This document shows positions 31,301 through 34,615 of a stretch of 64,000 bases of DNA, piece by piece (position 1 is the first letter of the stretch; the number at the start of each line of letters is the position of its first letter). The notes below the pieces were generated by a model. The model was not told where the DNA came from, did not search any database, and saw nothing but the letters and a program-made list of their open reading frames with translations. The stretch comes from Comamonas testosteroni (lineage in GTDB: Bacteria > Pseudomonadota > Gammaproteobacteria > Burkholderiales > Burkholderiaceae_C): contig CP044131.1 in NCBI GenBank assembly GCA_008727115.1, positions 2,108,001 to 2,172,000 of the forward strand, read 5' to 3'. The position numbers and the translations under genes are program-made.

Positions 31301-31519
31301 GCCATCGAGCATGGCTACGGGCACAAGCAACTGGGTGCCGTGGCACACAAGGTGGATGGCAAGGCCACCCATGCCAATCCGCAGCATGGCAATGGTGTGA
31401 ACTTGAATGCTTTGGGCTTTGCTGACCCTACGCGGCCTGAGAAAGACAATGTCTGGATTGATTGGGTTTCGGGGGCGGTGGTGAGGCAAGGGTTGCCTGT
31501 TCGCGTCAAGAAGGTTTGA
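28337..31519 (+). CDS. ttrA: tetrathionate reductase-type molybdopterin catalytic subunit A
   Basis: 1060 residues, near the 1020 of Salmonella TtrA. A Tat signal (SKRRMLLRGGAVAGGLAAFA) directs folded export. The [4Fe-4S] site is SCLGCWTQCGV with a later Cys in TSCARGSAM; the likely molybdenum ligand Cys lies in NHGSYCGQTYRVG. The C-terminal MopB dinucleotide-binding domain is present (HNPVSINKGDAEKLGI). The enzyme belongs to the DMSO reductase superfamily and would use tetrathionate or a related oxyanion as electron acceptor. A TTG ten codons upstream is less likely than ATG 28337. No ttrRS sensor genes are adjacent. Substrate is inferred from operon order. Confidence 0.85.
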   Translation: MTDKNKPSTSATTEGADVSKRRMLLRGGAVAGGLAAFAAGYGETVAKGAKGLISGTSGKTTKSATRGNSLTPEFRIDPVTGKLTTQVGQVVSPSSCLGCWTQCGVRVRVDTDHNQIIRIAGNPYHPLATTNPAPMETPVREVYAMLGGDNGLEGRATSCARGSAMLEHQKAPHRVLKPLKRVGPRGSGQWKTITLEELVKEICEGGDLFGEGHVDGLRAIRDVKTLIDEANPEYGPKSNQLLLTEAANEGRTPLVNRFAKQSFGTINVSNHGSYCGQTYRVGTGAALGDIAGMPHGKPDWKNSRFGLFIGTSPAQSGNPFQRVGRELAEARSRGENTYKYVVVSPMLPTSSSHAAGDNNRWLPVKPGSDLALAMGLIRWIIDNERYDKQFLTQPGPAAMAAVGEASWSNATHLLVSDPKHPRFGQFLRGADIGLPMPEPVDEKTPAEDVYVVQLADGSLAAHTVAQAAELIVEREFTPLKAADATEAPTPISVCTAFVKLRAEAHKKTLEEYAALCAVPVKEIEDLAREFTSHGKQAVANSHGGTMNGSGFYTAYAIAMLNNLIGNLNVRGGWVMDAGPFGPFGPGPRYNFAQFEGAVKPKGVALSRTKFPYEKTSEFKRKKEAGQNPYPAKAPWYPAPGGLSSEMLAAGMLGYPYPVKAWINHMSNPIYAMCGFENALADAVRDVKKLPLFVSVDPFINETSALADYIVPDTVTYESWGIGAPWADVVAKSSTVRWPTVDAATDKTADGQPISFETFIFAVAKQIGLPGFGKNAMSTKEGEPLDLENAQDFYLRGMCNIAYQAGKPVPEASDDDIEITGLQKWMPSVEKCVKPEEVRRVAMVMSRGGRFDRQEDAWKGDQLKLQAKFPVTFWNEGLSKMRHSMTGERYSGCPTWYPTRLADGSDMRTVFTEQEWPLSMTSYKSNLMSSMSIAASRLRQVHPHNPVSINKGDAEKLGIANGDHIELSTPGGKLQGVALVRAGIAPGAVAIEHGYGHKQLGAVAHKVDGKATHANPQHGNGVNLNALGFADPTRPEKDNVWIDWVSGAVVRQGLPVRVKKV

Positions 31520-31565
31520 TGGCTGGTTGAGAGCATCGCCTGCTTGATCTGGGTGATGAAAATGA

Positions 31566-31595
31566 AAAAGCCCATCGCGGAAGCGGTGGGCTTTT
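31566..31595. terminator. terminator after ttrA
   Basis: AAAAGCCCATCGC and GCGGTGGGCTTTT form a stem with a GGAA loop and T-rich tail. Confidence 0.88.
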
Positions 31596-31640
31596 GTTTT
31601 GGGTGAAAGGTCGTGAATGACCCAAAGCAGACACCTAAAT

Positions 31641-31700
31641 CTCACACAAACTAGATAAGCCGATCGTCATAGGCGGATCAGCTTGAGCGCCGAGTTAGAC
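31641..31700 (+). repeat. attC site 1
   Basis: Core R' box GTTAGAC (31694-31700) fits GTTRRRY. The 28-nt centre runs from AAGCCGATC to GATCAGCTT, pairing as AAGC/GCTT and GATC/GATC around one unpaired base, with 9-nt spacers on each side. The R'' box (CTCACAC) is degenerate. Confidence 0.75.
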
Positions 31701-31922
31701 CCAACGCTGGTGAATAGAGTGCGGAAACAGAAAACGCTACCAAAGTAAGAGCTGCTATCACGCGACTGATAAACGCCAAAGGCTTAAAAGGCAAAGCTAG
31801 GAACGCAGCCAAGCACCCAGCGAAAAACCGCTGGCGAAGGTGATGCCTGGTGAATGAGGTCTGGAGTTGAACGTACTAGAAATTAAAGCGGCTTAACGTC
31901 CGCTCGATGGAAAGGTTGGGCG

Positions 31923-32396
31923 TCATCGAGGTGTTAGTGCAGAGGGCCGGATTGTGAAACCGAGCGGTGCTTGATTCGGCTCAGCTTGGTGACAGTGATA
32001 CATATCTAGATAGACCACATGCTTGGTTGTTCCGCACACTAGTTCGTAGCCGTCAATGACGTGATAGTCCTGTTCGCCGGGCTGTAAAGGTGAGCCGCGC
32101 ATGATCCGCTCTACGAGTACCGTTTGCTGCCCAGCGCTCAGATTCTCGGGAAACTTATTGCGGCTACCGAAGCTACCGATTCGCTTGAATTGAAGCGCGG
32201 AGCCATCCGAGCAAAGTAGGCGAGAAAGGTATGCCCTTTCTCCGGCAGGCCCACAAACCTCAATGGCAGTAGCTTTACTAGTGCCGAGGCCTGTTGAGTT
32301 GCCTAAGCGCTCCGTGGTCGGTGTTTTTGTTGAACAAGCGGCACAGGCAAGTGATAGGGCCACCGCAACCACGACGTGAATATGACATAACAACAT
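31923..32396 (-). CDS. cassette-encoded secreted protein or lipoprotein of unknown function
   Basis: 157 residues. A hydrophobic N terminus MLLCHIHVVVAVALSLACAACST looks like a signal peptide with a possible lipid-attachment Cys. The mature part has three more Cys (EVCGPAGE, LLCSDGS, LVCGTTK) and ends PLGFTIRPSALTPR; no family recognised. ATG 32396 has CAGGAGAC just upstream (AGGAG, about six bases), much better than the longer frame. It lies in the first cassette but on the strand opposite to the attC orientation, so it cannot be read from an upstream integron promoter and probably has its own promoter inside or near attC site 2. Confidence 0.7.
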   Translation of the reverse strand: MLLCHIHVVVAVALSLACAACSTKTPTTERLGNSTGLGTSKATAIEVCGPAGERAYLSRLLCSDGSALQFKRIGSFGSRNKFPENLSAGQQTVLVERIMRGSPLQPGEQDYHVIDGYELVCGTTKHVVYLDMYHCHQAEPNQAPLGFTIRPSALTPR

Positions 32397-32410
32397 CTGT
32401 CTCCTGTGAT

Positions 32411-32470
32411 ACTCAATGAACAAGCCAAGCTGACCGCCGAAGGCGGGTCGGCTTGAGCACCGGATTAGGC
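32411..32470 (+). repeat. attC site 2
   Basis: R'' ACTCAAT and R' ATTAGGC flank 9-nt spacers and a 28-nt centre (AAGCTGACC to GGTCGGCTT, GAA loop). The R' side matches site 1 closely: GCTTGAGC, then CCG, then TTAG. The first R' base is A instead of G, compensated by T at the end of R''. Confidence 0.85.
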
Positions 32471-32648
32471 TGCAACCACAAGAATGCGCTGACCCCAAGA
32501 GCTTTTTTACCTGATGGATAAGGTCTAGGGCCTGCAAATTTTTGAGCTGAAACTGATAAACCTGTTATTTATGCTAAATCGAAGCGACGCCACTCAGGGA
32601 GAGAGCCCCCGGAGCTGCTAGAGCCACTAACTTGGTAGTCCAAGTTTT
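32471..32648. other. body of the short cassette, no gene recognised
   Basis: About 178 bases between attC sites 2 and 3. Neither strand has a start codon with a ribosome-binding site and an open frame of useful length. A TTGAC-like box or structured RNA was not identified. It may be a non-coding or decayed cassette. Confidence 0.55.
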
Positions 32649-32708
32649 GACTAACTCCAAGATTAAGCCGAACCGCGAAGCGGCTTCGGCTTAAATGAAT
32701 TATTAGGC
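32649..32708 (+). repeat. attC site 3
   Basis: R'' GACTAAC and R' ATTAGGC, 9-nt spacers, and a strongly self-complementary 28-nt centre (AAGCCGAA/TTCGGCTT, CCGC/GCGG, GAA loop, one bulged base). This is the best-preserved of the three and has the same dimensions as classical 60-bp aadA-type attC sites. Confidence 0.88.
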
Positions 32709-32819
32709 CCATGCGCGCTCGAATGCGGGGCGTCGGATGCCCGAACAGCGTGCCGCAGGCGCGGCCACACGGGGGATGTGGGAACGGGCGGACTGCCTGA
32801 TTGATGATGAAATTGGCTT

Positions 32820-32862
32820 CTAGCGCTTATCTGGATTGCGGTAGCTGCTATCAAAAACACAA
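32820..32862 (+). repeat. dispersed intergenic repeat, family A
   Basis: TCTAGCGCTTATCTGGATTG followed by AGCTGCTATCAAAAAC. Confidence 0.75.
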
Positions 32863-33096
32863 AGAAGTTATCCCGCATCCGGTATTGCCCCTTGTGTCCA
32901 CGCCTGCGACGACAAATGCTTGGGGCTGGCAGTTGCACCGTAGAGTGCAACTGCATCGTCATCACTTTTACGGCAACGTGTTTGAACGCAGAGCGCAGCT
33001 CGAAGTGAGTTTTGCCGCACAGCCCCAAGCGCTTGACGGCGCAGGTCGCCCCGCTGCGCAGCGAAGGGGACGTGGGCAGTAGGGGCCGGCTCTTTG

Positions 33097-33122
33097 CCTA
33101 CTTTCTGGCAACAGAAAGTAGG
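33097..33122. repeat. perfect hairpin CCTACTTTCTG/CAGAAAGTAGG
   Basis: Eleven-base arms with a GCAA loop, embedded in GC-rich sequence. No T run follows, so it is not an obvious terminator. It may be part of another dispersed element. Confidence 0.7.
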
Positions 33123-33204
33123 TCGGCAAGGCGGGCCGAGACCCGCCCTCTGTCTATCAAACCAGCATGTCGCTGAAACAGAAAACAAGCCAAATCAGCC
33201 TCTA

Positions 33205-33240
33205 GCCCAATCACAGCAAGCGCAAGCAGCTATCAATATT
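33205..33240 (+). repeat. dispersed intergenic repeat, family A
   Basis: AGCCCAATCACAGCAAGCGC followed by AAGCAGCTATCAATATTG; one of the copies closest to the consensus. Confidence 0.85.
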
Positions 33241-33541
33241 GAAATTGACTCATAGCAACCGACAGAGGCCGGATCTCAGCCCATGAATCAAGCACCCCGC
33301 TGGCATCGCGCGCACAGCCCAAACTCGGCCCTTGCTCAACCCACAGATTTCAACCCCAACCGACCTCTAACCAAGACCACTCCTGCGCTTTCAGCTATGA
33401 AATTCACCAAGCTCTCACAATCCGCAGTTAGTATCTGGTGCTGAAAAAGCAACCCGGGTTCCAAGCCTGCAATGGAGAGTGCGCAGGTCATGGTCAAAGC
33501 ACCCGTCTGCTTCCCCAATGATTGCTATGGAGACCCGTTTG

Positions 33542-34615
33542 ATGAAAACAAGCCTGCCGCGTATTCGCCCCCAACTGGCCGCCCTGCTGCTGGCCGCCTC
33601 CGGCATTGCCGCCACCACCAGCGCCTGGGCCTGCACCCGTCTGGTGTTTCACGGGGCCGATAGTCAGGTCATGACGGCCCGCTCCATGGACTGGAAGAGC
33701 GATATCGTGAGCAACCTCTGGGTGATGCCCCGCGGCATGGAGCGCAGCGGGCAGACGGGGCCGAACACGCTGCGCTGGAAGTCCAAGTACGGCAGCGTCA
33801 TCACTTCGGGCTATGACATCTCGACCACGGACGGCGTCAACGAGGCCGGGCTGAACGCCAACCTGCTGTGGCTGGTGGAGTCGCAATATCCGCACTTTGA
33901 CGACAAGAGCAAGCCGGGGCTGACGATTGCGGCCTGGGCGCAGTATGTGCTGGACAACTTTGCGACTGTGAAAGAGGCCGTGGCCGCGCTGGAGAAGGAG
34001 CCTTTCATCATCGTTTCGGACAATGTGCCCGGCGAGAATCGCCTGACCACGCTGCACCTGTCCATGTCCGATGCCAGCGGTGACAGCGCCATCGTGGAGT
34101 ACATCGCCGGCAAGCAGGTGATTCACCATGGCCGTGAATATCAGGTAATGACCAACTCGCCCACATTCGAGCAGCAGCTGGCACTGAACAGCTACTGGCA
34201 GCAGATCGGCGGCACGACCATGCTGCCCGGCACCAATCGCGCGGCAGACCGTTTTGCGCGGGCTTCGTTCTATGTGAATGCCATTCCCAAGGAACCCAAC
34301 CCCAACAAGGCGCTGGCCAGCGTGTTCAGCGTGATCCGCAATGTGTCCGTGCCCTACGGCATCAGCACGCCGGGTCAGCCCAATATCTCGTCCACCCGCT
34401 GGCGCACGGTGTTCGACCACCAGCGCCAGCTGTACTTCTTCGAGTCGGCGCTGACGCCCAACACTTTCTGGGTGGATCTCAAGTCACTGGACTTCAGCGC
34501 TCAGACCGGCAAGGTGATGAAGCTGGATCTGGGCACAGATCAGAACCACACCTTCTCTGGCAATGCCACCCAGGAGTTCAAGCCTGCCAAGCCTTTCCAG
34601 TTTCTGGGTATTTGA
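33542..34615 (+). CDS. choloylglycine hydrolase/penicillin V acylase family protein, exported
   Basis: 357 residues. A cleavable signal peptide (MKTSLPRIRPQLAALLLAAS, cleavage after AWA) exposes Cys 31 as the new N terminus (CTRLVFHG), exactly the N-terminal nucleophile arrangement of this family. Other conserved elements are SMDW near the nucleophile and NEAGLNANLLWL. Relatives hydrolyse linear amide bonds in conjugated bile salts, penicillin V or acyl-homoserine lactones; which applies here cannot be told. Gram-negative members are often periplasmic quorum-quenching acylases. ATG 33542 is chosen because it gives the signal peptide and has GGAG nine bases upstream. Confidence 0.85.
   Translation: MKTSLPRIRPQLAALLLAASGIAATTSAWACTRLVFHGADSQVMTARSMDWKSDIVSNLWVMPRGMERSGQTGPNTLRWKSKYGSVITSGYDISTTDGVNEAGLNANLLWLVESQYPHFDDKSKPGLTIAAWAQYVLDNFATVKEAVAALEKEPFIIVSDNVPGENRLTTLHLSMSDASGDSAIVEYIAGKQVIHHGREYQVMTNSPTFEQQLALNSYWQQIGGTTMLPGTNRAADRFARASFYVNAIPKEPNPNKALASVFSVIRNVSVPYGISTPGQPNISSTRWRTVFDHQRQLYFFESALTPNTFWVDLKSLDFSAQTGKVMKLDLGTDQNHTFSGNATQEFKPAKPFQFLGI

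Follow-up and report, generated by a model that had tools for sequence, protein, structure and literature searches.

Features of the locus

The window, by which we mean the whole stretch of DNA analysed (64,000 nt, hereafter 64 kb), contains three 60-nt stretches that stand where a first-pass annotation of the sequence had placed them. Read directly, each follows the plan 7-9-28-9-7 nt; we name them attC1, attC2 and attC3 from left to right (Table 1). For the first of them the plan and the place hold, but the covariance model described below starts the site at 31639 (31639-31700, 62 nt) and not at 31641 as given earlier. Since three attC sites lie within 1.07 kb and none of the seven matches of an integron-integrase model in the genome falls inside the window, the block is a CALIN, as had been proposed, in the definition taken from an extract of PMC9024848. 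No intI adjoins the array in the window, as one would in a complete integron. To its right lies a dispersed repeat of about 500 bp (32739-33236), present in many copies across the genus and inverted in places.

Table 1 Features of the cassette array, in the order in which it is read (positions of the window).
Feature	Position	Strand	Description
Dispersed genus repeat	32739-33236		5' part missing; many copies in genus
Remnant of lost first cassette	32709-32738		30 nt, up to truncation junction
attC3	32649-32708	-	R'' GCCTAAT ... R' GTTAGTC; aadA-type stem, hairpin intact
Gene-less cassette	32471-32648	-	178 nt of content, between attC3 and attC2
attC2	32411-32470	-	R'' GCCTAAT ... R' ATTGAGT; intact stem, ATT in place of the GTT core
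Cassette gene	31923-32396	-	157-aa probable lipoprotein; 14 nt from attC2 to its start
Probable fourth, degenerate attC	31866-31921	-	R'' GCCCAAC ... R' GTTCAAC
Further cassette remnant	31701-31865	-	165 nt; 37-nt likeness to a piece in G001
attC1	31639-31700	-	R'' GTCTAAC ... R' GTGAGAT; decayed core, decayed hairpin; distal array end

The only gene of the array is an intact open reading frame with AGGAG 4 nt before its ATG. Its homologues, at 45-50% identity, occur in other Betaproteobacteria, and 49 residues, four cysteines among them, are identical in all three aligned sequences. The product is probably a lipoprotein, judging by a hydrophobic start followed by cysteines, where a homologue in locus L126 has LSAC. 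It has no family in Pfam, NCBIfam or PADLOC and no sequence match in the PDB; its fold, predicted from three sequences with moderate confidence (mean pLDDT 70.5), has no PDB match better than E 0.16. PLSDB plasmid records contain no match at E 0.01. Nine of 399 genomes of the family, its own included, match the protein at E 0.001; two of the others do so strongly, one of them with an internal stop. A homologue is absent from the 52 other genomes of the genus. In the surroundings of the homologues (11 loci) the covariance model sees no attC, its sole match scoring 12.6 bits (E 0.68), so that the family occurs without any tie to integrons; the idea of an integron-bound lipoprotein family is thereby unsupported. 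With its Shine-Dalgarno-like sequence and conserved residues kept, the gene may still be expressed, and any function that the block has today is probably that of the lipoprotein alone, provided it is expressed.

The gene-less cassette contains no open reading frame of at least 60 aa confined to it. It has no DNA match outside the attC sites and edges among the matches listed in the 52 other genomes of the genus, a search in which at most eight candidates per genome were scored. For the whole of 31701-32740, the matches listed in these 52 genomes fall on attC2 or attC3 or across their edges, with one exception: a cassette piece of 37 nt, 86% identical to the 31701-31865 segment, that stands beside an attC in the integron of genome G001. 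No promoter-like site was found in 31500-33560; promoters of gene-less cassettes are said, in an extract of PMC11014356, not to be identifiable in silico.

Recombination sites: scores, strand and cores

The covariance model, built on the attC bottom strand, derives from 26 training sites, found in integron loci of the genus and in this genome's two integrase-bearing loci; the sites of the window were excluded, and the test is free of circularity. Its training sites were picked from a fold-based scan that demanded TT in R'. That scan, and then the model, superseded a high-threshold pattern scan, which had seen only the middle site, on both strands. In the training set, changes on both sides affect 35 stem cells, where shuffling gives 14.8 on average; the test is favoured by design, as the structure was drawn from the same sequences. 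Paired cells make up 83.6% of the training palindrome, against at most 44.3% when its arms are slid.

Run on the 64-kb window with filters off, the model gives attC2 47.9 bits (E 3.1e-9), attC3 45.6 bits (E 1.1e-8) and attC1 42.1 bits (E 7.6e-8), the E-values being rough by the tool's own statement; the best other place among the 14 rows in all reaches 13.0 bits. Default filters lead to the same result. The covariance-model check proposed in the first-pass annotation thus sets the three sites far above chance and far above the rest of the window, and their identity as attC is borne out. A search of the whole genome, in which 150 of 1,644 candidates were scored, returned seven rows at six places; among the matches listed, these are the three window sites and three training sites at the two integrase-bearing loci. 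As a census it is incomplete, having missed at least one weaker attC (L047:9255-9326, 26.2 bits in a separate search). Rfam has no match for the block.

Compared with the sites of other arrays, attC1 is 79% identical to an attC of locus L105 and attC2 85% identical to attC sites of L105 and L106. The closest relatives of attC3 (80%) are in the IntI-bearing arrays L100 and L099; this site also resembles the attC sites of resistance-plasmid cassettes.

Integrases bind the bottom strand of attC, according to a part of PMC3053210. On the + strand of the window attC2 scores 47.9 bits against 11.2 on the - strand, attC3 45.6 against 22.5, and attC1 42.1 with nothing listed on the - strand up to E 10. 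Because all three sites match the bottom-strand model on the + strand, the cassettes are read on the minus strand, from right to left. The orientation given earlier was therefore wrong, with the R'' and R' labels swapped, and the + strand is rejected as top strand on these scores. The cassette gene, itself on the minus strand, agrees with this reading.

The annotation had counted three sites; all three are strong, but one that is probably a fourth, degenerate attC (31866-31921) was overlooked. It starts 1 nt past the cassette gene's stop codon and consists of GCCCAAC, a 9-nt spacer, a 7-bp stem whose left arm has the extra A, a 13-nt spacer and GTTCAAC. The covariance model grants it only 10.1 bits (E 3.8), covering 31891-31921. 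A permissive scan detects it as one of eight rows in the whole window, of which the block accounts for four; 20 shuffles of 64 kb gave 4.5 such matches on average. The R'' half of the candidate is similar to an attC in L047, and 4 of 3,926 background pieces score as high.

All 47 array sites compared (26 training sites and 21 others; 48 model matches minus one, the reverse strand of a training site) carry GTT as R' triplet, a baseline biased in that the training scan behind 26 of the 47 demanded TT and the model favours the triplet. In the window the triplet is GTG in attC1, ATT in attC2 and GTT in attC3, as also in the probable fourth site; the cores of attC1 and attC2 thus depart from GTTRRRY. 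Folding of the single-stranded DNA gives a similar division. The bottom strands of attC2 and attC3 are stable (z -2.9 and -4.5), whereas attC1 has z about 0 on both strands and folds no better than its shuffles, so that the folding check that had been suggested succeeds for two sites and fails for one. As an imperfect palindrome with R and L boxes and an extrahelical base, attC2 and attC3 are recognised by both model and fold, attC1 by the model but not by free folding, and 31866-31921 by pattern only.

Mobility of the cassettes, earlier offered as an inference, is weakly supported, given that attC1 and attC2 have altered GTT cores and that attC1 has lost its hairpin. Today attC3 might still be a substrate for an integrase and attC1 very probably is not. 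At its altered core position attC2 keeps a standard pair (U-A), and it could be a tolerated variant.

The locus in the genus and the integrases of the genome

The orthologous loci compared come from 11 of the 28 other genomes of the genus with a left-flank match of more than 300 bits. In these 11 loci together with L049 (151.5 kb) the covariance model finds no attC at E up to 1. The permissive scan gives eight matches in six of the 11 loci, about what chance gives for 148.5 kb, and the model sees none of them. For all 28 genomes, some of them drafts in which a neighbouring contig is not visible, the attC places listed by a search with strict filters were compared by eye with the flank: none on the flank's contig is closer than 19 kb, the nearest, in G021, being 19.9 kb away.

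At the place of the array the relatives carry a gene for a LysR regulator (family confirmed), at more than 65% identity in nine of the 11 loci, and orf168, also in nine. Matches of the relatives' LysR within this genome have at most 34% identity. Two of the 11 loci (L113 and L115) have no match to the right-flank gene. In G015 the place of the array is held by a gene for a 315-aa protein with no Pfam family (L048:5637-6584), which has no tblastn match in the other ten loci; the interval is, on account of this gene, a variable spot. Fixation of the block in all relatives, which the annotation had named as a refutation, is not what is observed: none of the 11 loci has an attC by the model and none of the 52 genomes the lipoprotein.

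That the array has no integrase is true of the window but not of the genome, which holds a full-length IntI and a truncated intI1. A tblastn search of the window with the genome's own IntI gave no credible remnant, the best match having E 0.058 over 46 aa and lying outside the block. The search for an integrase elsewhere, also recommended earlier, finds the full-length one 0.59 Mb away (C1:2728613-2729575; about 458.6-458.9 bits, model positions 1-315; frame open), beside two aadA-family genes and two attC sites. It adjoins a fumarate hydratase gene, the neighbour of intI in three of the six IntI-bearing loci of the genus that were fetched (L100, L101 and L102, from G035, G071 and G023), and we take the resident IntI, for this reason, to belong to the genus's own chromosomal integron. 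The IntI of these three genomes are 83-87% identical to it. In the resident integron (L046:8610-13573, C1:2728610-2733573) an IS copy stands next to intI, the open reading frame of its 310-aa DDE transposase starting at a distance of 33 nt from the upstream end of the intI frame, and a second copy of the same transposase frame is present. The truncated intI1, at C1:1939745, matches NF011946 with 642.9 bits over positions 1-268 and adjoins an aac(6')-Ib-family and an aadA-family cassette, with an attC after each (L047:7586-10182, C1:1939586-1942182).

At least one attC at E up to 0.001 is present in 31 of 53 genomes of the genus, searched with strict filters that lose weak matches, and IntI matches over the cut-off, with truncated intI1 counted in, occur in 11 of the 53. 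As all 11 are among the 31, attC without an IntI over the cut-off occurs in 20 of 53 genomes, several of which are drafts. The array of G001 adjoins fumarate hydratase and has a shortened intI frame of 131 aa (L149:1996-4068, C1:865495-867567); two of its attC sites reach 71.4 and 50.4 bits, and a third 39.4 bits in one search and only 10.5 in another. This integron seems to be decaying. Among the papers searched, none mentions Comamonas, a chromosomal integron and attC together, and four mention Comamonas, attC and integron.

Origin and present state of the array

We consider it probable that the block is a relic CALIN, read on the minus strand, that arrived in this lineage with cassettes resembling those of the genus integron, was truncated at its promoter-proximal end and is losing its sites. 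A fragment with four attC sites, one of them probable and the others strong, and three cassette intervals, its cassettes being of the type found in the chromosomal integron of the genus, would have landed in this lineage between the gene of a TtrA-like reductase and that of a choloylglycine-hydrolase-family protein. Truncation at the promoter-proximal end would have come later, with the recombination sites being lost. At an intact site the bottom strand, here the + strand, would fold as single-stranded DNA. IntI would bind this fold by its extrahelical bases and cleave the R' core, so that cassettes could be mobilised by an integrase supplied in trans. The sites, their strand, the altered cores, the absence from the relatives' loci fetched and the intact reading frame are shown by the data; origin from the genus integron, manner of arrival and loss of function are what we infer here.

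The two ends bear on the manner of arrival. On the left, where the border can be placed approximately, the orthologous locus of G015 is homologous as far as 31624, which leaves 14 nt up to attC1. On the right, 30 nt separate attC3 from the dispersed repeat, other copies of which share at least 60 nt further upstream; 32709-32738 differs from what stands at that place in those copies. Because the other copies extend further, the right junction is a truncation, and the cassette of attC3 is lost except for these 30 nt.

One possible route, put forward tentatively, is that IntI inserted the cassettes at a non-classical chromosomal site (attG) and that the truncation followed. Such insertion is a phenomenon reported in an extract of PMC12444791, and IntI1 is said, in a part of PMC10127599, to need only 5'-GNT-3'; the left-flank homology, which reaches to within 14 nt of attC1, is consistent with it. 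The core triplet of attC1 is GTG and not GNT, which a later mutation could explain, and with the right end not preserved the signature is incomplete.

The block could instead be what remains of a complete integron once present at the locus, with intI and attI deleted. Truncation at the very end where attI and intI would stand, adjoining a truncated repeat, fits this account, which we nevertheless think unlikely: no attC is seen by the covariance model in the 11 relatives' loci, no integrase remnant lies in the window, and the genus integron has its place beside fumarate hydratase, here as in other genomes. Insertion at a non-classical site is slightly favoured over loss of the integrase in place, since the relatives' loci fetched are without attC there and the genus integron lies elsewhere.

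A live reservoir, with sites that still recombine and cassettes mobilised in trans by the full-length IntI at 2.73 Mb, is improbable. This integrase is full-length and open (458.9 bits), the hairpins of attC2 and attC3 are stable, and CALINs are described in an extract of PMC12444791 as mobilisable in trans; however, the cores of attC1 and attC2 are changed, the hairpin of attC1 is gone, and insertion of the transposase 33 nt from the resident intI may have displaced attI or changed intI expression.

Farther from our preferred reading of a decaying relic is the proposal that more than plain decay lies behind the altered cores: the array would be maintained, and recombined with a shifted core, by an IntI of relaxed specificity, the lipoprotein cassette and its gene-less upstream neighbour forming a working expression pair. 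An R-box pair of attC2 at the cleavage position is indeed kept by a change on both sides (C-G to U-A), but two other R-box pairs of this site are, by reading, non-standard, and we regard the proposal as very improbable. The weakest alternative, chance hairpins, terminators or dispersed intergenic repeats unrelated to integrons, can draw on terminator-like stems nearby (five against 2.9 expected) and on the fold of attC1, no better than shuffles, but is rejected on the model scores, 42-48 bits at the sites against 13 at the best other place, together with the strand preference, the cassette anatomy and the 79-85% identity to attC sites of arrays.

As a relic, the block is of modest import. It documents genus-integron-type cassettes that appear and decay at another place in the chromosome, one for which loci of relatives are available as comparison, and is a further sign that integrase-less attC sites are common in the genus, where 20 of 53 genomes have attC but no IntI over the cut-off. 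Closer strains could reveal how CALINs arise, whether by insertion at chromosomal sites or by loss of the integrase.

The block is not new in kind, being an ordinary, well-known type of gene-capture array. With CALINs at large it shares at least two attC sites close together, a small number of sites and no integrase nearby; there is no difference in kind, and what marks this one is that attC1 and the probable fourth site are much degraded. It resembles the CALINs of Xanthomonas that lie away from the ilvD integron, as described in an extract of PMC12444791: there too, small attC clusters stand elsewhere in the chromosomes of a genus with an ancestral sedentary integron. According to the same extract, their positions are often common to strains and species, whereas here no attC is present at the 11 orthologous loci fetched. 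With the genus integron at fumarate hydratase (in this genome, G035, G071 and G023, and with shortened intI in G001) the block has in common the same types of attC and, in G001, one cassette piece; those integrons have intI or its remains, whereas the block is without one and lies 0.59 Mb from the genome's own.
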